From: Sutcliffiella horikoshii
GTDB taxonomy: Bacteria > Bacillota > Bacilli > Bacillales > Bacillaceae_I
DNA length: 64,000 nt
Direction: 5' to 3'
NCBI GenBank assembly: GCA_001636495.1
Contig: KV440964.1
Span: forward strand, 264,666 to 328,665
A program made the position numbers and the translations under genes. The notes beneath the pieces were generated by a model. That model worked only from the letters and a program-made list of their open reading frames with translations. It was not told the origin of the DNA and ran no database searches. Within the stretch, counting starts at the first letter, position 1; each line of letters starts with the position of its first letter. Of this stretch, positions 2,236 to 37,583 are shown in pieces.

Positions 2236-3405
2236 CTATTCTAATGGTTTGTCTTGCAAATAGTTTCTCACTTCCATTATACTCCCATTCCGTAAAAACA
2301 TGCGGGGTACGCGGTAACTGATCATGCAAGGGACCTCATAGTTGATGGTGTCAAGCTTGGCAGCTACATCGTTGGAACTGATTTTCTTGCCACCTTGTTC
2401 TCCAATAAGCGTCACCTTGGTCCCAATTGGAAGTTCATGTGGTAATTTAATCATAAACTGATCCATACAGATTCTTCCAACAATTGGAGCGATTTTCCCG
2501 TCCACAAGAATGTTCATTCCTTGTAGTTTTCGAATCCAACCATCCGCATAACCCACCGGCACCGTTCCAATCCACTCTTCTTCTTTCGTCGTGTAAGTTG
2601 CCCCATAACTGACACTTTCTCCGATGGAAAGTTTCTTTACATGAACGAGTTTGGTATGAACGGAAAAGGCCTCTTTTAACGGAAAAGGCAATGTCGGTTC
2701 CATTTCTGGTGATGGCGTCAGTCCATACATGGCAATGCCTACACGGACAGCGTTAAAAATCCTCGCTGGAAATCTTAATGTCGTGGCACTATTTCCGCAA
2801 TGAACCATTGGGATTGTGCGATGATTGGTTATCTCCTTGATTAATGTGTGGAACCTTTTAAACTGGCGTTCCACATAATCTGATTGCAACTCATCTGCAG
2901 TTGCAAAGTGCGTATAGATCCCTTCTATTTGCAGGTTGGGAGCTTTTTCTATCAGCTCTAGTATTTGTGTGACTTCTTCTTGAGTTCGCGCACCGATTCT
3001 CCCCATGCCAGTATCAAGTTTCAGATGAAGTTTAACCACTTCCGTCCCGTGATATGCAGCACTCGCTTCTTCTACCCATTCTTCACGGAAAACAGTGAGG
3101 GTAATATTCTCTTTTGCAGCAAGCGGTAGATCGGAAACTCTTGAAGCACCCAACACAAGTATCGGAGCAGTTATTCCTTGTTGCCTTAAAGAAATCGCCT
3201 CGTCCAAAAAGGAAACAGCAAGATACTTCGCACCCGCTTCCAAAGCAACCTTCGCAACTTGCGCATCTCCATGCCCATAAGCATTCGCCTTAACGACTGC
3301 AATCACCGTTACATCCTTTGTCACATGCTCCTGTATCGCTGTTACATTCTCATATATACAATCTAAATCCACTTCAACCCATGTGTCCCGATGAAAGCTC
3401 GACAT
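2236..3405 (-). CDS. alr: Alanine racemase
   Basis: 389 residues. PLP-dependent fold-III enzyme that interconverts L- and D-alanine for peptidoglycan. The PLP lysine lies in VVKANAYGHG (Lys39); the C-terminal beta domain contains SVSYGATY and the active-site loop GRICMDQFM. ATG 3405 is preceded by AAAGGAAGTG at slightly long spacing. It sits upstream of ndoAI-ndoA and downstream of the ydcC terminator. With ddl and murF in the same window it supplies the D-Ala-D-Ala branch of wall synthesis. Confidence 0.97.
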   Translation of the reverse strand: MSSFHRDTWVEVDLDCIYENVTAIQEHVTKDVTVIAVVKANAYGHGDAQVAKVALEAGAKYLAVSFLDEAISLRQQGITAPILVLGASRVSDLPLAAKENITLTVFREEWVEEASAAYHGTEVVKLHLKLDTGMGRIGARTQEEVTQILELIEKAPNLQIEGIYTHFATADELQSDYVERQFKRFHTLIKEITNHRTIPMVHCGNSATTLRFPARIFNAVRVGIAMYGLTPSPEMEPTLPFPLKEAFSVHTKLVHVKKLSIGESVSYGATYTTKEEEWIGTVPVGYADGWIRKLQGMNILVDGKIAPIVGRICMDQFMIKLPHELPIGTKVTLIGEQGGKKISSNDVAAKLDTINYEVPCMISYRVPRMFLRNGSIMEVRNYLQDKPLE

Positions 3406-3546
3406 CTACCTAAGCACTTCCTTTACCTAACTACAACATCAAATTAATATGTACCTATCATAACGAAAATCTCCTCCAAAGTCATGCAAGAACGCCCCCT
3501 TCGACGTGATGAGCGAAATTCCTTTGGGGGTCTGACCCCTTTTCTC

Positions 3547-6140: not shown

Positions 6141-7610
6141 TTGATAGGAATACCATTCGTATATCCGGTCGCCATCCTCGTTTTCCACGTCCATCACCTG
6201 AAAATTCTTCCCTCCAAGGCCTGTTTTGATCGCCGCCTTTACAGTATAAAGCTTTCTTTTACCTTGAAAGAACGACTCCCTCAATTCAAAGGACTGAATT
6301 CGTTTTTTTCGGACCATGACGATATTTTTGCTAAGGTGGCGGTAGGAAAGTTGCAGTTGCTCCACGCCCTCTCCAAAGGACCAGCCAGCCGTTTTGAATT
6401 GGCTGTATCCCAGAATTGCCGCAACTCCTACTGACAGTAATGCAAAATATCCATAGGGTTGAAAGAAGTAGGCAATTGGTGCAGAAAGCAAGAGTGCCGG
6501 CACTCCCAACCGTATGATATATCGGATCAACGATCGCTTAGGCAACGGATGGATGTTTTTAGAAAGCTGGTAGGATGGTACAAATTCCTTCAACCTGGCT
6601 TCGACCTCGGACATTTTAACCAAGGGGAAAAGAATCGTGGAGAAATCAGCTTCTTTCCCACCTGAGCTCCCCGCACTCTCCACATAAACGGTGGCAAACC
6701 CGAATGGCTGCCTTAAGATATTCTGGGTGATCCTGATTGCCTGAATTCTCTCAAGCGAAATGGTCAATTGTCTTTTTTCAATGATTCCCCTCGAAATCAG
6801 CAGTTCGTCCTTATTTTTGACTACAGTAAAATTCCCGTATTTGAACATGGTCATCACGATGGAAATGAGCCATGAGAGAAATAGGACGATGAAGACAATC
6901 GAGGCTATCAGAAACACGCTCGTCTGCAGGACCATGCCGAACCGGTCAATGATTGCTTCATATGGTACGAACTGATCAAACTGGGAAGCGAATGCGACGA
7001 CGGCAGATAGGACGACACCGATTCCTCCGGAGGTTGTCCCCACAATGAATAACGCCTTCCAGGAAACGGTGAAAGTCGGTTTCGGCATTTGTTCCACCGG
7101 CTCTTCATCTATCATTTCCATTTCATCGAGGTCCCAAGCTTCGTCCTGAACCACAGCCTGATGTTTTTTATACAAAAGGGCTTCCTTTAGACGATTGGCT
7201 TCCTCCTTTGTGACAGCGGTAAGGCTTGCCTCCGCTTCCGCACCGCCACCAGCCGTTTCGACCTGCACTTTCACCAAGCTGAAAATCCGTTGGATGATGC
7301 CCTCGGATGTATCCAATGTTTGAATACGCTCTTGCGGGATGAAACGGCGCTTTCTCACGAAGACTCCGTATTCCATCCGCAGCTCCCCTTCTTCAATCCA
7401 GTAATAGAAGCGGTACCAAGAAAGGATCCCCGTCACAAGTAACCCTGCAAACCACAGGACCATGACACCGATATAAACAACCCCGAACCACCCTTCTCCC
7501 GTACTGCCAAAGAAAACGAAAAGGATGATTGGAAACAGGAGTTCACGCAGCTGCTTAAAAAATCCGACGACTATAGCAGCAGGGTGCATTCTTCTTTTCT
7601 CATACATCAT
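6117..7610 (-). CDS. ydbT: Membrane protein with repeated bacterial PH (bPH2/DUF304) domains, YdbT
   Basis: 497 residues with several membrane hairpins (near residues 10-50, 180-250 and 360-400) alternating with PH-like domains (RMEYGVFVRKRRFIPQERIQ, LISRGIIEKRQLTISLERIQ, and a third near the C-terminus). The matching RIQTLDTSEGI / RIQAIRITQNI motifs are typical of the YdbS/YdbT pair. In B. subtilis YdbST has been linked to resistance to bacterial antimicrobial products (recollection); the molecular role is unclear. Overlaps ydbS by 11 nt, so co-expressed. Confidence 0.88.
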   Translation of the reverse strand: MMYEKRRMHPAAIVVGFFKQLRELLFPIILFVFFGSTGEGWFGVVYIGVMVLWFAGLLVTGILSWYRFYYWIEEGELRMEYGVFVRKRRFIPQERIQTLDTSEGIIQRIFSLVKVQVETAGGGAEAEASLTAVTKEEANRLKEALLYKKHQAVVQDEAWDLDEMEMIDEEPVEQMPKPTFTVSWKALFIVGTTSGGIGVVLSAVVAFASQFDQFVPYEAIIDRFGMVLQTSVFLIASIVFIVLFLSWLISIVMTMFKYGNFTVVKNKDELLISRGIIEKRQLTISLERIQAIRITQNILRQPFGFATVYVESAGSSGGKEADFSTILFPLVKMSEVEARLKEFVPSYQLSKNIHPLPKRSLIRYIIRLGVPALLLSAPIAYFFQPYGYFALLSVGVAAILGYSQFKTAGWSFGEGVEQLQLSYRHLSKNIVMVRKKRIQSFELRESFFQGKRKLYTVKAAIKTGLGGKNFQVMDVENEDGDRIYEWYSYQKKQGNVV

Positions 7611-21610: not shown

Positions 21611-21654
21611 TTTGAATTTATAATATTAAAATAACTTTAAAAGAGGTAATGATC

Positions 21655-22206
21655 ATGTGGAGAGATCAAGTATTAGAATGGTTCTCGGCGGTCGGTCCAT
21701 TCGCCATCGTACTTAGTATTCTTATCAATATCATCATAAGCATACTCGCTTTTATGCCAAGTGTTTTTCTCACCGCAGCCAATCTGGCTTTCTTTGGCTT
21801 CTGGTGGGGCACGTTGATTTCTTTTTTGGGGGAATCCATCGGGGCCATCGTGAGCTTCTGGCTCTATCGAAAAGGGATCAAAAGATTTGCTCCTGATGCG
21901 TTGATGAAAAATAAATGGCTGGTGAAATTGCAGGAAACCGGCGGCCGGGAAGCTTTCCTATTGGTTTTGGCATTGCGTTTGTTTCCGTTTGCGCCATCCG
22001 GACTTGTAACATTGGCTGGAGCAACAAGCAGGATCAGCTTTTTCGGATTTGCCGTTGCAAGCACAGTTGGAAAGGTGCCGGCTTTGATGTTGGAGGCATT
22101 TTCGGTCTATCAGGTGCTGCAATGGAATACGGCGGGGAAAGTGATTTTGGCGGTGGTGGCAGCCGTGGTTGTAGTGGGGGTTTTGAAGGGTAGGCTTAAA
22201 AGATAG
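21655..22206 (+). CDS. TVP38/TMEM64 (DedA-like) family membrane protein
   Basis: 183 residues with about five membrane segments. The SNARE-associated/VTT domain signature is present: FWWGTLISFLGESIGAIVSF near the N-terminus and LALRLFPFAPSGLVTLAGAT in the middle. Relatives are thought to act in lipid or ion homeostasis; no reaction is assigned. ATG 21655 has AGAGG at 8 nt; ATG 21649 is too close. Divergent from csoR across one CsoR operator. Confidence 0.8.
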   Translation: MWRDQVLEWFSAVGPFAIVLSILINIIISILAFMPSVFLTAANLAFFGFWWGTLISFLGESIGAIVSFWLYRKGIKRFAPDALMKNKWLVKLQETGGREAFLLVLALRLFPFAPSGLVTLAGATSRISFFGFAVASTVGKVPALMLEAFSVYQVLQWNTAGKVILAVVAAVVVVGVLKGRLKR

Positions 22207-28395: not shown

Positions 28396-28439
28396 TCTTT
28401 CCCACTCCTTCATTCTTTTTATTTATTGTTACTTTAAAA

Positions 28440-28477
28440 TAGATAAAGAGGCAGCCATCCATTTTCCCGGCTGCCTT
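28440..28477 (-). terminator. Terminator after the csbD-like gene
   Basis: Minus-strand stem AGGCAGCC / GGCTGCCT with a 12-nt loop, followed by CTTTATCTATTTT. Confidence 0.7.
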
Positions 28478-28527
28478 AATCATTCTTATCTATTCATATG
28501 GTACTTTTTTGGCCAATCTCCTCGAGC

Positions 28528-28716
28528 CTAATTCCAACCGTCGACTTCGCGTTCCGCTTCTTCTTTTGACTTCCCGTAGCGTTCTTGAATTTTGCCTACC
28601 AGCTTATCACGATCTCCCTCAATTTGTTGAAGATCATCATCCGTGAGATTGCCCCATTTCTTCTTGGCGTCACCTTTCATCTGGTTCCACTTGCCTTTCA
28701 TGGTTGTACTGTTCAT
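28528..28716 (-). CDS. CsbD-family stress protein
   Basis: 62 residues from ATG 28716 (AGAGGAG upstream). Full CsbD-like pattern: MKGKWNQMKGDAKKKWGNLTDDDL, then a hydrophilic helix DKLVGKIQERYGKSKEEAEREVDGWN in two parts. A small, very hydrophilic stress protein of unknown activity. Family members are sigma-B controlled, and a matching promoter lies upstream at 28777-28803. Confidence 0.92.
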   Translation of the reverse strand: MNSTTMKGKWNQMKGDAKKKWGNLTDDDLQQIEGDRDKLVGKIQERYGKSKEEAEREVDGWN

Positions 28717-28776
28717 AATCAAACATCTCCTCTCACATCATTTTGTGACTTCTGATAGTTCGTCACTAGTTACTTC

Positions 28777-28803
28777 ATTCCTCTTATACATAATTTAAAA
28801 CCT
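28777..28803 (-). promoter_or_regulatory. Sigma-B-type promoter of the csbD-like gene
   Basis: Minus strand AGGTTTTA (28803-28796), 13 nt, AGGAAT (28782-28777). It compares well with the sigma-B consensus RGGxTTRA and GGGTAT. It lies about 60 nt upstream of the start codon. Confidence 0.6.
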
Positions 28804-28876
28804 AATTATTGGAACAAATTCACTTCCCAACTTTTGACCTAATCTACCCCTCGTAAAACAATTAAAAAAAATATTT

Positions 28877-28902
28877 GTTTAACATTTTACACGCTAGGGA
28901 AT
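28877..28902 (+). promoter_or_regulatory. Sigma-B promoter of the tandem microprotein genes
   Basis: GTTTAA (28877-28882), 14-nt spacer, GGGAAT (28897-28902): a full sigma-B consensus. The start of the first small gene is about 50 nt downstream. Divergent from the csbD promoter. Confidence 0.8.
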
Positions 28903-28959
28903 TACCTTCTGTGTAGACGTTGAAAAAAAATACCAAAACTATATTAGGAGGAAAATAAC

Positions 28960-29109
28960 ATGTTATGGACAATTTTTGCAGTACTATTAGTTCTTTGGTT
29001 ACTTGGTTTCGCAATGGAAATTGGTGGAGGACTTATTCACATTCTTTTAGTTCTAGCTGTAATAGCAATCGTATTTAACTTTTTCGGAGGAAGACGTGGC
29101 GTCAGGTAA
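28960..29109 (+). CDS. Lmo0937-like membrane microprotein, copy 1
   Basis: 49 residues, too short for many gene callers. Begins MLWTIFAVLLVLWLLGFAME, then a second hydrophobic stretch (IHILLVLAVIAIVFNFF) and a basic end GGRRGVR. Two membrane helices separated by a short Gly-rich turn match the lmo0937-type family of sigma-B/stress microproteins. ATG 28960 has TAGGAGGAAA upstream. The function is unknown. Confidence 0.9.
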   Translation: MLWTIFAVLLVLWLLGFAMEIGGGLIHILLVLAVIAIVFNFFGGRRGVR

Positions 29110-29203
29110 CATTCATCCATAAATTTCTACGACTAATTGAAATTCCTAAGGGAAAAACAATAGTACAGTTACTTTAAGTCAGACGTTTAGGAGGCATATC
29201 ACT

Positions 29204-29350
29204 ATGTTATGGACAATTTTTGCAGTATTACTTATCTTGTGGTTACTTGGATTCTCTTTTGATATCGCAGGGAACCTTATTCACATTATCCTTGTATTAG
29301 CACTAATCGCATTAGTCTTTAACTTATTCACTGGTCGCAGAAGGCCGTAG
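29204..29350 (+). CDS. Lmo0937-like membrane microprotein, copy 2
   Basis: 48 residues, starting MLWTIFAVLLILWLLGF and ending TGRRRP. It shares the first ten residues and the two-helix layout with copy 1, so it arose by tandem duplication. ATG 29204 has TTTAGGAGG upstream; 94 nt separate the copies. Both precede one terminator and are likely on one sigma-B transcript. Confidence 0.9.
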   Translation: MLWTIFAVLLILWLLGFSFDIAGNLIHIILVLALIALVFNLFTGRRRP

Positions 29351-29362
29351 TGATTATAAATA

Positions 29363-29414
29363 GAAAAAAGCTGGGAAGAATCAGTGGTTACACTGAGGCT
29401 TTCCAGCTTTTTTC
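29363..29414. terminator. Bidirectional terminator
   Basis: AAAAAGCTGG...CCAGCTTTTTT stem with an inner TCAGTG/CACTGA pair. U-runs are present in both directions, so it can stop both the microprotein genes and the opposing six-gene transporter operon. Confidence 0.9.
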
Positions 29415-29477
29415 ATGAAGATTATTATATCGCCGCTGATAATTTTTGCAACGGGCCTCGCTTTCACGAAAAGAAAC

Positions 29478-30059
29478 TTATTGTAAAATCCTCTTCGCTT
29501 CAAAGAAACGCTGCAATCCCGTAATGATCTCGACCGCCAAGAAGACCAGGGTGGTCCATAGGACGAAAGCCGGTAATAACATCATTAGCGAAAGCAAAAT
29601 AAATCCTTCCGTTCGCTCCGCAAGACCTGCCTGATAATAAAAGGACTTCATCCCCTGTTTTTCAGAAACGGCACCCACTGTCAGAAAGACCGTGATGGAA
29701 AAAATGATGGAGACGCTCAACAGGAGCAGTGCCCACTGTATTTCTGGATAGACAAAAGCCACTCCAAGAATGACACTGATCTCGACTAAGCGATCGAATG
29801 TGACATCCATCACCGTTCCCCACGGGGAAGATTTTGTTTTACGGGCCATCGTACCGTCGACCGCATCAAGAAATCCTGAAATCCAGAGCACCATTACTGC
29901 AAATAAGGGGAAACCGAAATAGAAAAAGGCTCCTGATGACACACCGATACAAAAAGAGATGATGGTAACCTGGTTAGGTGTCAAACCGAACTTCAGCAAC
30001 TGTTCCGCCGTGTTAGATATTAATGGTTGGACATATTTTCGGGCATGCGTATCTAGCAT
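29478..30059 (-). CDS. CDP-alcohol phosphatidyltransferase family membrane protein
   Basis: 193 residues, about six membrane helices. The family catalytic motif is present as D-G-x2-A-R-x7-G-x3-D-x3-D (DAVDGTMARK...WGTVMDVTFDR, about residues 65-90). The usual gap after AR is eight residues; here it is seven. Family enzymes transfer a phosphoalcohol from CDP-diacylglycerol or CDP-alcohol donors at the membrane. Last gene of a six-gene operon, 12 nt after the TVP38-like gene. Its resemblance to E. coli YnjF is by motif and context; the product is not predictable. Confidence 0.8.
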   Translation of the reverse strand: MLDTHARKYVQPLISNTAEQLLKFGLTPNQVTIISFCIGVSSGAFFYFGFPLFAVMVLWISGFLDAVDGTMARKTKSSPWGTVMDVTFDRLVEISVILGVAFVYPEIQWALLLLSVSIIFSITVFLTVGAVSEKQGMKSFYYQAGLAERTEGFILLSLMMLLPAFVLWTTLVFLAVEIITGLQRFFEAKRILQ

Positions 30060-30071
30060 AGGAACCTTCCT

Positions 30072-30713
30072 TTATTTGAAGTATTTTTTTAACTTATCCC
30101 TGAAAAAGATTGGAATAATGGCAATCAGTATAAACACCACGACCGCTGCCATGATATATGTATAGTCCCCCTCCACGAAGCTTGAGCCCAGGAAGTTATA
30201 GGCAAACGTCCCCGGGAGGATGCCAAGGAAGGTGCCAAGGACAAAATGTGAAAATTTAACTTTTGAAATCCCGGCTGAATAGCTGATCAGATCAAAAGGG
30301 AAGAGCGGCAATAAACGAAGAAAAAGGATATAGAAGAACCCTTGCTTCTCCATATTCTTCTGAATGACGGAAGCTTTTCCTTTCCAGGAATGGTTCGCCA
30401 AGCTTTTCCCTAGCTTTCTCGCAACGAAAAAAGAAAGCGCTGCGCCGAGTGTTGCCCCGATAATGGTGTAAACGGTTCCCCATAAAGCACCAAACGCAAG
30501 CCCTGCCCCAAGGGAAAGTACGGAAGCGGGGAACAGTACAAGCGGCCTTACTGTGTAAACAATGATAAAAATGAATGGCGCCCATGCCCCAAAGTCGAGA
30601 ATCCACTCTCTGATGGAGGAGGGGGACACGGATACATAGCGATAGTTGATCCAAAATAGACCACCTACCAGCGCTACCAACAATAGGAGTCGTATCGCAT
30701 TTTTCCTGCTCAC
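30072..30713 (-). CDS. TVP38/TMEM64 (DedA-like) family membrane protein
   Basis: 213 residues, about six membrane helices. VTT-domain signature: RPLVLFPASVLSLGAGLAFG, GATLGAALSFFVARKLG, and FLRLLPLFPFDLISYSAGIS. The GTG start overlaps the ATPase stop as GTGA. Similar to E. coli YdjX/YdjZ, which also accompany YnjBCD. The role is unknown; possible scrambling or transport of lipid intermediates is inference. Confidence 0.85.
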   Translation of the reverse strand: MSRKNAIRLLLLVALVGGLFWINYRYVSVSPSSIREWILDFGAWAPFIFIIVYTVRPLVLFPASVLSLGAGLAFGALWGTVYTIIGATLGAALSFFVARKLGKSLANHSWKGKASVIQKNMEKQGFFYILFLRLLPLFPFDLISYSAGISKVKFSHFVLGTFLGILPGTFAYNFLGSSFVEGDYTYIMAAVVVFILIAIIPIFFRDKLKKYFK

Positions 30714-31693
30714 TGTACTGTCCCCACAGGAAGTTTGATGATGTCGGCTTCATCCTCAACCGCCACCCATACCTTTTCAGAAGGACGCAACTGCTCCGAA
30801 GAAGGCAAGGTTAGCTTTTGGTTGAGCCCTTCCACCTGTATATCATAGAAAAGACTACCATGCTTCACCTTTGTTTGCAGCACTTTCCCCTCATAACTTT
30901 GGAATGCATGATAGGGCATTATGTTGGTTGCGGTCAGTTTCCTGGAATGAATAAAAGAGTTCGAACCGACTAATAGACCATCCGAGAAGAACTTTGCCAC
31001 AAAAGGTGTCGCCGGCTCTTCATACACATCCATGGGTTTACCGACCTGCTGGACTTTTTTTTCTGCAAATACGGCGACCCGATCCCCCATTAGCATGGCC
31101 TCTTCTATATCATGGGTTACGAAAAGGCTTGAGATACCTTCCTCTTTCAATAATTCTTTCACCCATAACCTCAATTCATCCCGTTTTTCATTATCAATGC
31201 TGCTGAACGGTTCATCCAATAACAGCAACTGAGGATTGGTGATCAATGCTCTTGCCAATGCCACCCTCTGCTGCTGGCCGCCGGAAAGTTCGTAAGGATA
31301 ATGAGTTCCATACCCTTCTAATCCGACTTTTTTCAGAAAGTTTACTGCTTGTTCCTTCTTCTGTTTTTTTGTGCCCTTTCTTTTAAAAGAAAGACCAATC
31401 ATGACGTTATCCATTACCGTCATATGTGGAAACAGCAAAGGCTGTTGAAACATCATCACAATCGGCCGTTCATTAGCCGGCATGTGAGTGATATCCTTAT
31501 CCCCTATTTTAATTGTTCCCTCTGAAAGCGGTTCGAGTCCAGCGAGACATTTCAACAAGGTGGACTTCCCACTCCCGGACGGTCCGACCATACTGATGAT
31601 TTCACCTTGTTGTATGGTCAAATGAAGGTTTTCGATGATCCCCTTCCGTTGGTAATGCTTCGATACATTTTCAATCACAATTTTTTCATTCAC
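30710..31693 (-). CDS. YnjD-like ABC transporter ATP-binding protein
   Basis: About 327 residues. Walker A VGPSGSGKSTLLKC near residue 38, Q-loop MMFQQPLLFPH, signature ELSGGQQQRVALARAL, Walker B LLLLDEPFSSID, H-loop VTHDIEEA. A C-terminal extension (about 235-327) resembles a TOBE-type regulatory domain (VLQTKVKHGSLFYDIQVEG). GTG 31693 has AAGGGTG at 7 nt; TTG 31699 is possible. Overlaps the permease gene upstream. Energises import with the two permeases and the binding protein. Confidence 0.87.
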   Translation of the reverse strand: MNEKIVIENVSKHYQRKGIIENLHLTIQQGEIISMVGPSGSGKSTLLKCLAGLEPLSEGTIKIGDKDITHMPANERPIVMMFQQPLLFPHMTVMDNVMIGLSFKRKGTKKQKKEQAVNFLKKVGLEGYGTHYPYELSGGQQQRVALARALITNPQLLLLDEPFSSIDNEKRDELRLWVKELLKEEGISSLFVTHDIEEAMLMGDRVAVFAEKKVQQVGKPMDVYEEPATPFVAKFFSDGLLVGSNSFIHSRKLTATNIMPYHAFQSYEGKVLQTKVKHGSLFYDIQVEGLNQKLTLPSSEQLRPSEKVWVAVEDEADIIKLPVGTVQ

Positions 31694-32501
31694 GATCAAT
31701 CACCCTTTTCTGATACGGAATCACCATTCGAAATACCAGTTCAAACCCTATCATTACTAGGATAGGAAGAAACGCAAAGATAAGGGAGAAGCTCGCAATG
31801 ACCGCTTCATCCACCGACGACAAGAAAGGAAAATACAGCATGGCCAACGTCAACACATTTCCTCCCCCAATTATCGATGTGAGCGCATATTGGCTTAAGG
31901 AAATGACAAAGATCAGAAAGACCATGCTCCGAAAGCTCGGCAATAACTGCGGCAAATAGATTTTATAAAGAATCACGCCTTTTGTTCCTCCGAGGGTGCT
32001 GGCCTGCTCCTCCCACTTCTGTCCGAGCCGTTCGAATCCAGAACGCAAAATTTTAATCGAATATGGTACTGTCGGAATAAGGTGCACCATGACCAAGCCG
32101 AGCCACTGGTCCGCCAAGCCCAACCGTATCATCGTGACATGAATTCCCATCGCAACTGCGAGACTTGGAATCAGGATGGGTAGGATGAGGACCGTTTCGA
32201 CCATAGATTTCCCCCTGAAGGAGTGAAAAGCGAGGGCCCTTGCTGCCGGTACCGCAATGAGGAGGTTCAAAAGGATGACGATGACACCAATCCATAATGT
32301 CATTCCTATTGCCGAGTAGAAACGGGGATCATTCAGTAGCACTTCAAACCCTCTTAATGAAAAAGCGGTCGGCAACAGTTCTCCCCACCGCCAACCGTTG
32401 GATACACTTTTGAGGAGCAATAGTATAACAGGCAGACACAGAAAGAAAACGAATGTAAAAAAAAGTATGCTAATTCTTTTATTCTTCATCCTACATCCCA
32501 T
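31686..32501 (-). CDS. ABC transporter permease (YnjC C-terminal-half-like)
   Basis: 271 residues, six membrane helices. The cytoplasmic coupling motif EQASTLGGTKGVILYKIYLP (E-A-A-type, about residue 175) marks a type I importer permease. It overlaps the previous permease by 11 nt and the ATPase by 8 nt. ATG 32489 (MKNKRISIL) is an alternative start just after the upstream stop. E. coli YnjC is one long fused permease; here it is split into two genes. Confidence 0.87.
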   Translation of the reverse strand: MGCRMKNKRISILFFTFVFFLCLPVILLLLKSVSNGWRWGELLPTAFSLRGFEVLLNDPRFYSAIGMTLWIGVIVILLNLLIAVPAARALAFHSFRGKSMVETVLILPILIPSLAVAMGIHVTMIRLGLADQWLGLVMVHLIPTVPYSIKILRSGFERLGQKWEEQASTLGGTKGVILYKIYLPQLLPSFRSMVFLIFVISLSQYALTSIIGGGNVLTLAMLYFPFLSSVDEAVIASFSLIFAFLPILVMIGFELVFRMVIPYQKRVIDRE

Positions 32502-33357
32502 TTCCTTTCATCATACGGTATCGCGTCTTGGACAATATACCTAATATAAGAACGAGCAAACCTACTATAATGCCTGTTACGAGTATCATCACCGCAAACG
32601 ATTCCGGCCTTCTGCTCCAATCTCCTTGGTAAAACCACTCATAGGCGAGCACCGACACCATTTTCGGATAGGTAGTGCCGAGTAAATAAGGCACTTCAAA
32701 TGCCGCCAAGATAAAGGCAAACACAATCAGACCTGCCTCCATCAGCACCGGAAACAGCCATGGCCATTCCACCGTTTTGAACACATGCCACCTATTGCCT
32801 CCAAGTGTCTCCACCACTCTTGGCAAATCCCTGTTCAACTGGGCATACACCGGTAGAAGCATCAGGACGACAAAGGGAATTTCCTTTAATGTGTAGGTGA
32901 TGATTATGCCAATTCCGTAGCGGTCATTGGTCAGTACCGGAAACTGCTCCGGACTGTCTATGATGGACAGTCCATGGAGGAGTGTCGAAAACCAGCCGGT
33001 CTGCGAAAAAAGCAGAATCATCATATACCCCCAGACAAAGTGTGGGAACAACATCGGCAGCCAGACAATCGTTCGTGCCAAATGGTTTTGCAAGGCTTCG
33101 AACAGGGCTTTTGTCACAATCAGTCCCAACGCCAGCGATAGAAGCGTTGATATAACGGCAATCCTCAGACTGTAAAGCAGAGAATCTAGGAAGGTCTGGT
33201 TTGCGAGGATGCTGCGGTATGCATCCAGGCTGATTCCGTTAAGGCCCGTCACACTCTCCTGTGCCGCCATGAACAGCCCATACACGACAAGGCAGAATGT
33301 GAAAAGAAAAGCCGGGAGGAGTGCGAGACTCCAGCTATTGTTTCTGTACCACTTCAT
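32491..33357 (-). CDS. ABC transporter permease (YnjC N-terminal-half-like)
   Basis: 288 residues, six membrane helices (first at about 12-32). The coupling motif is VVETLGGNRWHVFKTVEWPW near residue 185. ATG 33357 lies inside the 3' end of the binding-protein gene (23-nt overlap), with AGGAG at 10 nt. With the next permease it forms the membrane channel. Confidence 0.87.
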   Translation of the reverse strand: MKWYRNNSWSLALLPAFLFTFCLVVYGLFMAAQESVTGLNGISLDAYRSILANQTFLDSLLYSLRIAVISTLLSLALGLIVTKALFEALQNHLARTIVWLPMLFPHFVWGYMMILLFSQTGWFSTLLHGLSIIDSPEQFPVLTNDRYGIGIIITYTLKEIPFVVLMLLPVYAQLNRDLPRVVETLGGNRWHVFKTVEWPWLFPVLMEAGLIVFAFILAAFEVPYLLGTTYPKMVSVLAYEWFYQGDWSRRPESFAVMILVTGIIVGLLVLILGILSKTRYRMMKGNGM

Positions 33358-34579
33358 TGACCCAATGCTCCTTCAACCAATTCACATACCCAGCATCCAC
33401 TTCCGGCAAAAGGCTTTCACTCAATTCCTCCGGCGTCAGTACCGAAGCGCCTCTATCCATCTTGGCCAGTTTTTCCTGTGCGTCCTCTGGCAGCTTTGTC
33501 GGATCTAGCGCCATATTTTCTCCCCAGTAGGTGGACTCATATTTAGCGAGTTGCGCATCCGTGGACATCATATAATCGATGGCCACCATGGCACCAGCCT
33601 TGTTTGGGCTGTTGAATGGAATGGCTAAAAAGTGTGTATTTCCGATGGATCCTGACTCCAATACGAAGGATTTCGTTGTTTCAGGGAACACGCCGTCTTG
33701 GATCAAACTTTCCGCCCTCGCTTCGTTATACCCCATTGTCATCCATACTTCTGCTTGGCTGTACAATCGATCCAAGTCGGTTAGGGTTGCCGGATAGGTT
33801 TCCCCTTTTCTCCAGAGCGATGGTTGGATTTCGCGGAGATAACTCCATAGTTCTTCTTCGTGTTCTTTTAAAACTTCCTCATTGAAGCCCGTTTCAATTA
33901 ACTTCTCTGGACCGCCGACCGCATCGTAAAGGACATGCCTTAAAAAGGCGTTTCCTGTAAAATCATTGGCCTCCGGATAGGTGAATTTGCCGGGATTTTC
34001 TTTTATCCAATCCTTTAACTCTTCTAAGCTGGCAGGTGGCGTCTGGATTTTTTCTTCATCATATAAGAATACGAACTGCACTTTCCCCCATGGCGCCTCC
34101 ATTCCTTCCACCTCTGTACCAAAATCATATTGGACATCTAGACTTTCCGTGTCGACATAGTTTTGGTAGTTTGGTAGCTTTTCGCTGAAAGGTCCGTAGA
34201 GGAGCTCAAACTCCTTGGCGTTCTTGAAGTTTTCTCCGTTGAGCCAGATGATATCAATCGTCCCGTCATTTTTGTTCGCTCGCTTTTCAGTGGACAGCTT
34301 TTGCAGGATTTCGTTTGTATCCATCGGGACTCGTTCTAGTTCGATGTTATGGGCTTCTTTTAGATTTGGCGCGACCCACTCATCCATATAGCGGTTGATT
34401 CCATCATCGCCGCCCCACATAAAAATGCGCACTTTAGAGCCGTCGGCAAGTTCTGTGATGTCGCTCCACTCTTTGTCTTTCAATTCCTCGTCAACGCTGT
34501 TTGTTTTAGTGGTTGTGTTCGAGCAGCCACCTACTAATAGGATTGCGATCAATAATAATGCCAATACCCGGATTTTCAT
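33335..34579 (-). CDS. YnjB-like ABC transporter substrate-binding lipoprotein
   Basis: 414 residues. Lipoprotein signal LALLLIAILLVGGC, then a large two-domain binding protein. VRIFMWGGDDGINRYMDEWV near residue 50 and GTIDIIWLNGENF near 108 are characteristic of the YnjB family (COG4134 by recollection), annotated only as uncharacterised. AIPFNSPNKAGAMVAIDYMM in the C-terminal half is also typical. ATG 34579 follows AGAGGGA. First gene of a tightly overlapping six-gene operon. Substrate unknown. Confidence 0.87.
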   Translation of the reverse strand: MKIRVLALLLIAILLVGGCSNTTTKTNSVDEELKDKEWSDITELADGSKVRIFMWGGDDGINRYMDEWVAPNLKEAHNIELERVPMDTNEILQKLSTEKRANKNDGTIDIIWLNGENFKNAKEFELLYGPFSEKLPNYQNYVDTESLDVQYDFGTEVEGMEAPWGKVQFVFLYDEEKIQTPPASLEELKDWIKENPGKFTYPEANDFTGNAFLRHVLYDAVGGPEKLIETGFNEEVLKEHEEELWSYLREIQPSLWRKGETYPATLTDLDRLYSQAEVWMTMGYNEARAESLIQDGVFPETTKSFVLESGSIGNTHFLAIPFNSPNKAGAMVAIDYMMSTDAQLAKYESTYWGENMALDPTKLPEDAQEKLAKMDRGASVLTPEELSESLLPEVDAGYVNWLKEHWVNEVVQKQ

Positions 34580-34773
34580 GGTCGTCCCTCTTCTCTCTAT
34601 TTAAATATATCTATCTATATATATAACACTAACCTTTTATACTTTGAAATGTCGGTATGTTGGTGGTGGGTTTAGGTTCTTTAGGAACCTAACGTTTTGG
34701 GTGGGGATTTGGATCAGTTTTGGGGTTGGTTGGTGTTTGGATTTTTGGTCGAGAGTGCAGGGGTCAAAAAACC

Positions 34774-34820
34774 TAAAAAAACGCATGGATCAACTCACTA
34801 AAAGAATCAATCCATGCGTT
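34774..34820 (-). terminator. Terminator after ppaC
   Basis: Minus-strand stem AACGCATGGAT / ATCCATGCGTT with a 17-nt loop, then TTTTTTTAGG. Confidence 0.88.
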
Positions 34821-34828
34821 CTTCATTC

Positions 34829-35758
34829 TTATTTCGTTAAAGCTTCCGTCAACACAGGTACAACCTGCTTCTTACGGGATACGACACCCTTCAATAGGGC
34901 AGTGTTGTTCTCAAGCGTCACATTGTACGCTTTCTCAACAGCCGGTGCCTTAGAACCTAGTGCAAGTGCAACAGAATCATTCTCTAAAATATCCGTTACT
35001 ACAAGTAAGAACAAATCTAAGTCCTTATTCGCAATGTTCGCTGTAATAACCGCTTCTAGTTCTTCTTGCTTTGCAAAAACGTCGTTTGTATCAACCGTGT
35101 TCACTTGCGCGATTTCCACTTTGTAGTCGCCCATCTGGAATTCTTTTGCGTCAAGGGAGATAAGCTGTTCTACTGTCTTGTCGCTCAGGTCTGCTCCTGC
35201 TTTTAACATCGCTAAGCCGTACTCTTCTGCATTCACTCCTGCGATTTCCGCAAGTTCTTTTGCAGCTTGTACATCCTGCTCTGTGCAAGTTGGGGATTTG
35301 AACAATAAGGAGTCAGAAATGATGGCAGAAAGCATCAAACCTGCAACCGGCTTAGAGATTTCTACACCGTTTTCCTTGTAAAGCTTGTTCAAGATCGTCG
35401 CTGTACAACCAACAGGCTCTGCACGGTAGTATAACGGATCTGCTGTTTCAAAATTTGCGATACGGTGGTGATCGATTACTTCAAGGACGCGAACTTGATC
35501 AATATCACTTACGCTCTGTTGGCGCTCGTTGTGATCGACTAAAATTACTTCCTTCACTTCGTTTGCAACAGTTTCCACTAAACGCGGAACTTCACTGTTG
35601 AATTCTTTTAACGCATATTCCGTTTCGCCGTTCAATTCACCTAAGCGAACTGGTTCAGCATCCATACCTAATTGCTTTTTCAACTCTGCATAAGCAATTG
35701 CCGAGCAGATGGAATCTGTATCTGGGTTTTTATGTCCTAGTACTAAAACTTTTGTCAT
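34829..35758 (-). CDS. ppaC: Manganese-dependent (family II) inorganic pyrophosphatase
   Basis: 309 residues, the normal length. DHH-family metal motifs: [14 protein letters not shown] (His9, Asp13, Asp15), VDHNE near residue 76, and the DHH motif in [11 protein letters not shown]. The C-terminal DHHA2 domain ends with [14 protein letters not shown]. It hydrolyses pyrophosphate to phosphate, driving biosynthesis. ATG 35758 follows AAGGAG. Monocistronic. The 280-bp gap on its right holds no recognised signal. Confidence 0.96.
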
Positions 35759-36041
35759 GAGTACTCTCCTTGCGTAAATGTATTATCGAGCTAATTTTAC
35801 TAACTCTTCCACTTTGTATCTTACATCAAAATTTCTTTTGTTTCAAAAACAAAATCGGTATATTTGATATCCAGGATAAGACAAATACGTTCTTATTGAG
35901 AAAATTCAAGACGGATCTTAGGCATGCCGAAACACCACGAGTTCATGCCAAACCTCACCACTTCCCCAAATACTCTCCATTACGATATTTTCCCATCAAG
36001 TAGGGTAGGAAATAGTAACGCTAAATTTTGGAGGTTCTGAA

Positions 36042-37583
36042 ATGCACAATTCCACAAAATTATCATCTCATCCCGCTTCACTCTGGCAGCAGCAACAAAC
36101 ACCGGACACCTTTTCCTCCCTCAATGAAAACATCTCAGCGGATGTGACCATTATCGGTGCAGGAATTACAGGCATCACTGCCGCTTATCTTCTTGCAAAG
36201 GAAGGATTGAATGTCGTACTCCTTGATGCAGGGAAGGTCACCGGGGGGACTACCGGTTTTACCACCGCTAAAATTTCCTCCCAGCACGGATTAATCTATC
36301 AAGATTTAATCAAGCAACACGGACTAGAAAAAGCAAAGATTTACTATGAGGCAAATCAAGAGGGTTTATCTTTCATCCAGGAACGCATCCACGATTTGCA
36401 GATAGATTGCGACTTTGACACACTCCCATCATTCGTCTACTCCACGAGTAAGGAAATGGAGCAAAAGGTGGAGGAAGAGGCGAATGCCTATCTCAAGCTT
36501 GGTATAAATGGCGGCTTTGCTCACACAGAAGATCTGTCCCTCCCCTTTCCTATAAAAAATGGAGTGATGATGCGGGATCAGGCACAATTTCATCCTGTCA
36601 AATACCTTAACGGGCTGATACAAGCTTTTACAGAACTAGGAGGTAACGTGTATGAGCATACAAGAGCAACGGACATACAGAAGGATTCCTCTATCGTAAA
36701 AACGGATGACGGGTTTGAGGTAAAAAGCAAATATATCATTGTCAGCACCCATTACCCCTTCAACGATTGGAGCGGTCTTCTCTTTTCTAGATTGCATGTT
36801 GAACGTTCTTACGCACTTGCTGCCAAAATGGGACACGTTCAAATACCGGATGGCATGTACTTGAGTGCCGATAAACCGACCCGCTCTATCCGCTCTGCAA
36901 CTAGCCCTAACGGAGAGAAATTGTTACTTCTTGGAGGGGAGGGACATCCCACCGGTCAACATGATCGAGACACCCTCACCCATTATGAGAAGCTTGCCGA
37001 GTTTGGAGCCAGGTATTTTGATATAAATGATATCCCGTTTCATTGGTCCTCTCAGGATATTTTTTCGCTTGATCGCCTGCCATATATCGGTCCCATTCAG
37101 TCAGGGGCTGAACATGTGCTTGTAGCTACCGCCTATGCCAAGTGGGGCATGACAAACGGTACGGTTGCTGCTTGTATACTGAAAGATACTATCCTGAACC
37201 AGGTCAATCCTTATAAGGACCTTTTCCAACCTAGTAGGGGAGAAATGGAGTCCAGCAGCATCAAAAACTTTGCAAAGGAAAATGCAACAGTGGCCAAAGA
37301 GCTGATAAAAGGGAAATTAAAAAGAGCGTCTCGTAGTTTAGATGAGTTGAAGTGTGACGAGGGTGGCATTGTCCAATTGGACGGCAAAAAGGTAGGAGCC
37401 TACAAGGACAGCGAGGGCACATGCTACCTCCTTAAGCCTACTTGTACCCATATGGGGTGCGACGTGGTATGGAACGATGCCGAACGTTCATGGGATTGTC
37501 CATGCCATGCTTCACGATTCTCCTATAAAGGGGACGTATTGGAGGGGCCAGCAACGAAACCCTTAAAGGAGTATGAAAAATAA
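36042..37583 (+). CDS. yhfW: FAD-dependent oxidoreductase with C-terminal Rieske domain (YhfW-like)
   Basis: 513 residues. N-terminal FAD-binding Rossmann motif VTIIGAGITGITAAYLLA near residue 35 and GGTTGFTTAKISSQHG belong to the DAO family. A C-terminal Rieske [2Fe-2S] domain binds through Cys-x-His (PTCTHMGC) and Cys-x2-His (CPCHASRF). The arrangement equals B. subtilis YhfW. Substrate unknown. ATG 36042 has TTTTGGAGG upstream. Confidence 0.9.
   Translation: MHNSTKLSSHPASLWQQQQTPDTFSSLNENISADVTIIGAGITGITAAYLLAKEGLNVVLLDAGKVTGGTTGFTTAKISSQHGLIYQDLIKQHGLEKAKIYYEANQEGLSFIQERIHDLQIDCDFDTLPSFVYSTSKEMEQKVEEEANAYLKLGINGGFAHTEDLSLPFPIKNGVMMRDQAQFHPVKYLNGLIQAFTELGGNVYEHTRATDIQKDSSIVKTDDGFEVKSKYIIVSTHYPFNDWSGLLFSRLHVERSYALAAKMGHVQIPDGMYLSADKPTRSIRSATSPNGEKLLLLGGEGHPTGQHDRDTLTHYEKLAEFGARYFDINDIPFHWSSQDIFSLDRLPYIGPIQSGAEHVLVATAYAKWGMTNGTVAACILKDTILNQVNPYKDLFQPSRGEMESSSIKNFAKENATVAKELIKGKLKRASRSLDELKCDEGGIVQLDGKKVGAYKDSEGTCYLLKPTCTHMGCDVVWNDAERSWDCPCHASRFSYKGDVLEGPATKPLKEYEK

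Follow-up and report, generated by a model that had tools for sequence, protein, structure and literature searches.

The operon studied here lies in a 64,000-nucleotide stretch of the Sutcliffiella horikoshii genome (contig KV440964.1; hereafter the window), at positions 29478 to 34579. Its six genes are read on the minus strand from 34579 to 29478 and encode a YnjB-type binding lipoprotein, two ATP-binding cassette (ABC) permeases, an ATPase, a VTT/TVP38-type membrane protein and a YnjF-type cytidine diphosphate (CDP)-alcohol phosphatidyltransferase (Table 1). Neighbouring genes overlap or almost touch: the overlaps are 23 nucleotides (nt) between YnjB and the first permease, 11 nt between the permeases, 8 nt (from GTG start 31693) or 14 nt (from TTG start 31699) between the second permease and the ATPase, and 4 nt between the ATPase and the VTT gene, which a gap of 12 nt separates from the phosphatidyltransferase gene. 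A preliminary description of this DNA had given the same six-gene arrangement, and its coordinates, overlaps (23, 11, 8 and 4 nt) and 12-nt gap were borne out. The gene upstream of the operon encodes a Mn-dependent pyrophosphatase, and the terminator-like hairpin that sits in between suggests that the operon has its own transcript, separate from that of the pyrophosphatase gene.

Table 1. Genes of the operon and the hairpin at its upstream boundary (window positions)
Feature	Positions	Strand	Basis
YnjB-type substrate-binding lipoprotein, 414 aa, lipobox Cys19	33335..34579	-	NF008633 473 bits, cut-off 203
First ABC permease	32491..33357	-	PF00528 (BPD_transp_1) E 1.2e-9; 26% to E. coli YnjC 12-231 (N-terminal half)
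Second ABC permease	31686..32501	-	PF00528 (BPD_transp_1) E 5.6e-10; 24% to YnjC 354-503 (C-terminal half)
ABC ATPase, YnjD type, longer C end; start TTG 31699 or GTG 31693	30710..31699	-	PF00005 (ABC_tran) E 1.3e-38; 37.5% to YnjD
VTT/TVP38-type membrane protein, putative lipid scramblase	30072..30713	-	PF09335 E 4.8e-29, 101.8 bits, cut-off 33.9; 30-31% to YdjX and YdjZ
YnjF-type CDP-alcohol phosphatidyltransferase	29478..30059	-	CDP-OH_P_transf E 8.4e-12; 30% to YnjF over full length
Terminator-like hairpin, 20-pair stem and T run	34777..34823	-	Consensus match alone; 3' of upstream pyrophosphatase gene

The binding protein passes the curated cut-off of the YnjB family (NF008633 / PRK11622), and its seven closest relatives among the best 80 of 101 loci are 84-90% identical to it. 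Each part of the operon has a counterpart in the ydjXYZ-ynjABCDEF region of E. coli K-12 (36% identity over 375 columns for YnjB), and the parallel with the E. coli TVP38 proteins, YnjBCD and YnjF drawn in the preliminary description is supported by these identities and by the K-12 gene layout. Among 5426 complete E. coli genomes, the ynjB-ynjE stretch occurs in 5373, covering at least 80% of its length in 5358, and ynjF is likewise found in 5373. The literature is cited here from excerpts, in which the FNR regulon lists ydjXYZ-ynjABCD and ynjE, the latter named as directly activated (PMC3688515), and the BaeR regulon table includes ynjA and ynjB (PMC2731931). The excerpts of open-licence literature searched assign no function to YnjBCD or YnjF. 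A ynjB deletion also figures in the mutant table of a ciprofloxacin-tolerance screen (PMC13131330).

We surveyed the neighbourhood of YnjB, up to 8 kb from the gene, in 121 stretches: 80 Bacillaceae-type loci (the best 80 of 101), 28 stretches from genomes of the window's phylum, 12 plasmid records (of 74 in the plasmid collection with a YnjB match) and E. coli K-12, the window's own genome lying outside this set. YnjB exceeds its curated cut-off in 117 of them (L120-L123, below the cut-off and all without YnjF, were dropped), or 115 distinct stretches once two doubled contigs (L104, the contig of L050, and L110, that of L016) are discounted. These two count in the 117 stretches, in the 87 linked YnjF genes below and in the 32-row YnjF alignment, and are excluded from both the YnjB and VTT trees and from the 51-row YnjB alignment, which also excludes L118. 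A YnjF-type gene is found near YnjB in 87/117 stretches (85/115 distinct), a VTT gene in 94/117 (92/115), both in 75/117 (73/115) and neither in 11/117 (11/115). The figures for YnjF, VTT, both and neither are 61, 69, 54 and 4 for the 80 Bacillaceae-type loci, many of which come from few genera, so that loci are not independent; they are 16, 17, 13 and 4 for 24 phylum-genome stretches, and 10, 8, 8 and 3 for the 13 plasmid and K-12 records. The window genome (4.26 Mb) holds three CDP-OH-P genes and eight VTT genes, from which about 1% and 3%, respectively, would be expected by chance per 17-kb stretch, and both partners therefore occur near YnjB beyond chance. The preliminary description had seen its weak point in the prospect that most YnjB homologues might lack both neighbours; in the survey, 85 of the 115 distinct stretches have YnjF and 92 have VTT.

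Most of the 87 linked YnjF genes share a strand with YnjB, 70 downstream of it and 13 upstream, and four are on the opposite strand; this varied order and strand means that the linkage outlasts rearrangement. Loci that pair YnjBCD with a CDP-alcohol phosphatidyltransferase occur in Bacillota, Fusobacteriota, Gammaproteobacteria and Alphaproteobacteria, so the preservation of this association between distant phyla, claimed from the window alone, holds and is joined by the co-occurrence and co-decay in genomes described below. A Klebsiella IncR plasmid (L131) carries YnjB-YnjC-YnjD-YnjF together with an annotated TVP38/FAD-oxidoreductase fusion, FAD being flavin adenine dinucleotide. Plasmid records of Salmonella, Escherichia, Citrobacter and Providencia contain a YnjB match with the same range and identity (L131 alone was read), an indication that the module is passed between species.

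Loci without YnjF are scattered on the YnjB tree, with 11 changes (10-11 in bootstraps), of which well-supported branches force at least seven. This distribution is no better than chance order, as 77 of 500 label shuffles gave a value as low. We searched 17 genomes with such loci (14 Halobacillus, Salsuginibacillus kocurii, Anoxybacillus voinovskiensis and Pseudalkalibacillus decolorationis; L057 and L065, two such loci at contig ends, lay outside this search). In 16 of the 17, one YnjF was found elsewhere in the genome, with 62-67% identity, and in the Pseudalkalibacillus genome it neighbours a VTT gene; the genome-wide search of A. voinovskiensis returned none. Of three plasmid records searched for YnjF, one had none and two gave weak matches (29 and 28% identity). 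In G280, from the phylum sample, YnjF sits at the end of a different contig.

The two genes also go together across genomes. In a sample of 299 genomes of the window's phylum, YnjB exceeds its cut-off in 26 and YnjF (threshold 150 bits, the next score being 67 bits) occurs in 20, both being present in 18 (Fisher p 8e-21, relatedness uncorrected). Each of the two genomes with YnjF only holds a decaying cluster: G075 has a fragmented YnjB and a split YnjF, and in G254 no YnjB was found, with YnjF, VTT, rhodanese and FAD protein truncated. Importer and YnjF decay together in these genomes, and the sample therefore contains no intact YnjF without YnjB. The control, B. subtilis, had no match to YnjB in this search. 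In the opposite sense, 8 of the 26 YnjB genomes have no YnjF, one of the eight being represented by a YnjB fragment at a contig end (the contig-end fragment of G098 lies outside the collected stretches). A TIGR04283 glycosyltransferase is found in four of these eight genomes and in none of the 18 with YnjF (p 0.005), and in several of them an APH/choline-kinase-like kinase, a nucleoside hydrolase or glycosyltransferases adjoin YnjBCD. The imported compound may have a second fate in YnjB genomes that lack YnjF.

A conserved core of importer and CDP-alcohol enzyme stands on these observations. The most economical explanation is an import-coupled phospholipid pathway, in which YnjB would bind an extracellular alcohol, small and neutral or cationic, and the two permeases and the ATPase would carry it inward. 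At the cytoplasmic side, the YnjF-type enzyme would let this alcohol replace cytidine monophosphate on CDP-diacylglycerol, giving a phosphatidyl-alcohol that the VTT protein may allow to cross or equilibrate between leaflets, and so redistribute. We put the chance that the operon works in this way at about even. Head-group uptake and transfer to a membrane lipid in a single pathway had been suggested from the window before; the association of YnjBCD with YnjF favours that suggestion, while the substrate, the lipid product and the VTT step remain proposals.

Two sets of observations call for caution about this pathway, and the first concerns the VTT step. VTT lies beyond 8 kb in 7 of the 61 Bacillaceae-type loci with YnjF and in the alphaproteobacterial loci L129 and L135, and the linked VTT proteins fall into at least three tree groups, of YdjX, YdjZ and window types, several branches being long and uncertain (the tree includes seven of the window genome's eight VTT proteins and none for L094, where the frame is ambiguous). 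In Sutcliffiella relatives (L001-L003, L005-L007), VTT is outside the operon, as a 55-61% identical relative elsewhere in the genome. In the three stretches of such relatives that were examined it adjoins a MerA-like disulfide reductase, the closest equivalent of which in the window genome (62% identical) is 2.4 Mb distant. The several groups and the position outside the operon in relatives make VTT a frequent helper rather than part of the core: it is a common but looser partner of YnjB than YnjF is. The VTT protein misses the equivalog cut-offs of the undecaprenyl-phosphate flippase UptA (21.8 of 300 and 21.5 of 250 bits) and matches one function-unknown family in PHROGs. In an excerpt of PMC3836016, YdjX and YdjZ are said, from work cited there, to be unable to substitute for YqjA/YghB. 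In favour of the lipid pathway, further lipid genes recur beside the cluster. An LPG_synthase_TM/flippase-like membrane protein, typed from one member, occurs near it in six stretches (L107:4227-5237, L049, L050, L078, L104 and L109, L050 being the same contig as L104) and is a possible companion of VTT. A PlsC-type acyltransferase adjoins the Deinococcus YnjB, and genes annotated PqiA and MlaD adjoin the Roseivivax YnjF. The window contains a second VTT gene (21649-22206, plus strand), separate from the operon VTT on the tree, beside genes that were named from sequence reading as a CsoR-like regulator and a copper-type P-type ATPase.

The second set of observations points to redox or sulfur chemistry. 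Over the 117 stretches, the genes within 8 kb of YnjB include an Nterm_to_SelD-like FAD oxidoreductase (58 stretches), a MerA-like disulfide reductase (52), rhodanese-like genes (19) and, by best query, a GltD/YgfK-like FAD protein (14, or 17 at a looser limit). The oxidoreductase and rhodanese names were assigned from single cluster members, and a neighbour cluster with YdjX, YdjZ and YnjE, which joined VTT, rhodanese and disulfide-reductase genes through fusions, was split so that these were counted separately. One cluster from a metagenome-assembled genome is flanked by ThiF, class-V aminotransferase, rhodanese and Fe-S genes. For E. coli, the excerpt of PMC3930520 places ynjABCDEFI by genetic interactions in one group with the Suf Fe-S assembly genes sufCDS. 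This grouping gives independent support for a joint action of ynjB, ynjC, ynjD and ynjF, and by the same token the purpose of the cluster may be redox- or sulfur-related. The preliminary description had overlooked the redox and sulfur neighbours, the link between ynjABCDEFI and Suf, and the eight YnjB genomes without YnjF.

It could then be that the cargo of YnjBCD is a sulfur or thiol compound destined for Fe-S or thiol repair, and that YnjF and VTT supply or move a lipid needed by the redox machinery instead of using the import as a head group. The neighbours, the Suf grouping and the fusions of COG0398 DedA proteins with disulfide oxidoreductases that the excerpt of PMC10127716 reports would all fit. 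However, no redox neighbour is as constant as YnjF, the annotated loci L129 and L135 have YnjF and YnjBCD without any, and Moco-related phenotypes (Moco, molybdenum cofactor) of a delta-ynjE strain are normal in the excerpt of PMC3831636. We consider this explanation unlikely, if serious. A combination of both ideas is conceivable and distinctly improbable: the cluster would make and maintain a redox-active phospholipid. YnjF would attach a thiol- or sulfur-bearing alcohol, once imported, to diacylglycerol phosphate; the sulfur would be loaded or recycled by the rhodanese, AhpD-like, disulfide-reductase and Fe-S partners, and TVP38-type proteins would shift the lipid between leaflets. If true, the lipid would act as a sulfur or thiol carrier bound to the membrane, and the idea would account for the lipid genes and the Suf link together; we know of no description of a carrier of this kind.

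A simpler alternative is that YnjBCD imports a known nutrient (thiamine, a polyamine or 2-aminoethylphosphonate, 2-AEP) and that the two membrane proteins are co-transcribed bystanders. The best weak matches of the permeases and the ATPase are indeed to 2-AEP, molybdate and polyamine transporters. The AlphaFold2 model of YnjB (mean pLDDT 90.2) has a substrate-binding-protein fold common to many binders. Its top Foldseek row is 4r6y (STM0429), which we take to be a 2-AEP binder. In the PDB, YnjB alone retrieved chance-level rows, and with a profile weak partial rows to polyamine (PotD) and thiamine binders; PHROGs gave a weak function-unknown row. A review table places YnjB among polyamine-binding proteins, in the excerpt of PMC9397018. 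Against this, the importer parts missed every transporter cut-off among the matches listed (25 of 189 for the ATPase), including those for 2-AEP importers (PhnT2 276.1 of 457.7, PhnV 74.5 of 358.7 and PhnU 58.4 of 283.5 bits) and thiamine importers (ThiQ 178.7 of 245 and 172.1 of 298 bits, the ThiP models lying far below). A thiamine pyrophosphate (TPP) riboswitch is usual upstream of thiamine importers in Bacillota; none was found at E up to 1 in window positions 28400-36100, or at the gathering score in 33 stretches (32 distinct). A thiamine substrate, which the preliminary description had feared as an outcome, is unsupported: neither the riboswitch scan nor the ThiQ and ThiP cut-offs gave any sign of it. 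Moreover, bystanders are not expected to co-occur and co-decay with YnjB, and we regard the known-nutrient explanation as rather improbable.

Structure-based ligand prediction, put forward as a check of the first proposal, yielded no single ligand for YnjB. Sugar, glycoside, polyamine and sugar-phosphate binders tie in the VIA list of fold matches, and Foldseek behaves alike; the sugar-phosphate binder AfuA is included. Cys19 is invariant across 31 YnjB rows (Bacillaceae-type and Desulfosporosinus), as are R83 and R288. Among 51 diverse YnjB proteins, the positions conserved in at least 90% include W55, G56, G57, N62, D109, W112, 114-118 (NGENF), Q168, W256 and N323, and comprise no arginine and one lysine, K346 (92%). 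We assume that these conserved positions take part in binding. In L111 and L125, both nucleoside hydrolase loci, YnjB deviates at six of them.

The enzyme itself raises another possibility, namely that YnjF is a phosphatidylinositol-phosphate (PIP)-type synthase and that inositol phosphate or a sugar phosphate is what YnjBCD takes up. YnjF has the family fold and the D-xx-D-G-xx-A-R and G-xxx-D-xxx-D motif of CDP-alcohol phosphatidyltransferases (D65, D68, G69, A72, R73, G81, D85 and D89 in the window protein). Its nearest families and folds are the PIP and archaetidylinositol phosphate synthases; PHROGs gave no match for it. With the PIP synthases PgsA1 of M. tuberculosis (Mt) and RsPIPS (Rs) it shares the fold, the catalytic motif and one of the two arginines that bind phosphate (retained in 31 of 32 YnjF rows), and AfuA figures among the YnjB fold matches. 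Yet it misses the curated cut-offs of both synthase families (78.2 of 170 and 105.1 of 180 bits), and the other arginine, R153 (Rs) or R155 (Mt), is G, T or A in 32/32 rows; S132 and K135 (Mt) are apparently replaced too, in a low-confidence region of the alignment. As this phosphate-binding arginine is never kept (0/32), the acceptor of YnjF is probably an unphosphorylated alcohol. Inositol phosphate as the acceptor is unsupported, given the missed cut-offs and the absent arginine, and we hold a PIP-type function to be very unlikely.

Two further ideas have little chance of being right. In L100, L106 and L108, TIGR04283- and TIGR04282-type transferases (arsenosugar glycosyltransferases by name; one member of each was scanned) and an APH/choline-kinase-like kinase follow YnjBCD in the place of YnjF, raising the thought that YnjF makes arsenosugar phospholipids; this is hardly credible, since ArsS (TIGR04167) is not over its cut-off in the genomes of those loci or in G000, exceeds it in 6 of the 299 genomes and none of the 26 with YnjB (a zero overlap also expected by chance), and all four genomes with TIGR04283 and YnjB lack YnjF. 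In L096, YnjBCD, an APH-type kinase and a nucleoside hydrolase lie inside a Moco gene cluster with Moco riboswitches at 3351-3483 and 7168-7294. A role of YnjBCD in molybdenum or tungsten cofactor metabolism, suggested by an RF01055 riboswitch there (49.5 bits, about 360 nt before YnjB) and by the annotation of E. coli ynjE as molybdopterin synthase sulfurtransferase, is just as doubtful, with the riboswitch in one of 33 stretches scanned and the delta-ynjE phenotypes normal. That riboswitch may belong to a short lipoprotein-like frame between it and YnjB, which is perhaps ModA-like but had no NCBIfam match.

Returning to the import-coupled lipid pathway, its implications would be wide. About 99% of complete E. 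coli genomes and many Bacillota would hold a so far overlooked phospholipid with a head group taken up from the surroundings, and six orphan E. coli genes (ynjB, ynjC, ynjD, ynjF, ydjX and ydjZ) would gain a common purpose. A natural lipid substrate would also be suggested for the bacterial relatives of TMEM41B/VMP1, which are poorly understood.

A functional analogy is bacterial choline uptake coupled to the phosphatidylcholine synthase Pcs, in which an imported alcohol is joined to CDP-diacylglycerol; the proposed pathway would work alike, with the difference that YnjF is closest to PIP-type synthases. ABC importers of 2-AEP, thiamine and polyamines have type I importer parts and the substrate-binding fold in common with that of the window, which differs from them by the missed cut-offs, and to our knowledge none of them has a linked CDP-alcohol enzyme. 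The window VTT shares its domain and its kinship with YdjX and YdjZ with the COG0398 DedA/TVP38 proteins. It differs from them in lying inside an ABC importer operon. The excerpt of PMC10127716 ties the COG0398 subfamily to aerobic metabolism and proposes that its members are possibly phospholipid scramblases. Finally, the E. coli ydjXYZ-ynjABCDEF cluster has importer, YnjF and TVP38-type proteins in common with the window, but its permease YnjC is fused, its YnjF lies on the opposite strand, its TVP38 genes are two, and it includes YdjY, YnjA and YnjE, all three absent from the window operon.

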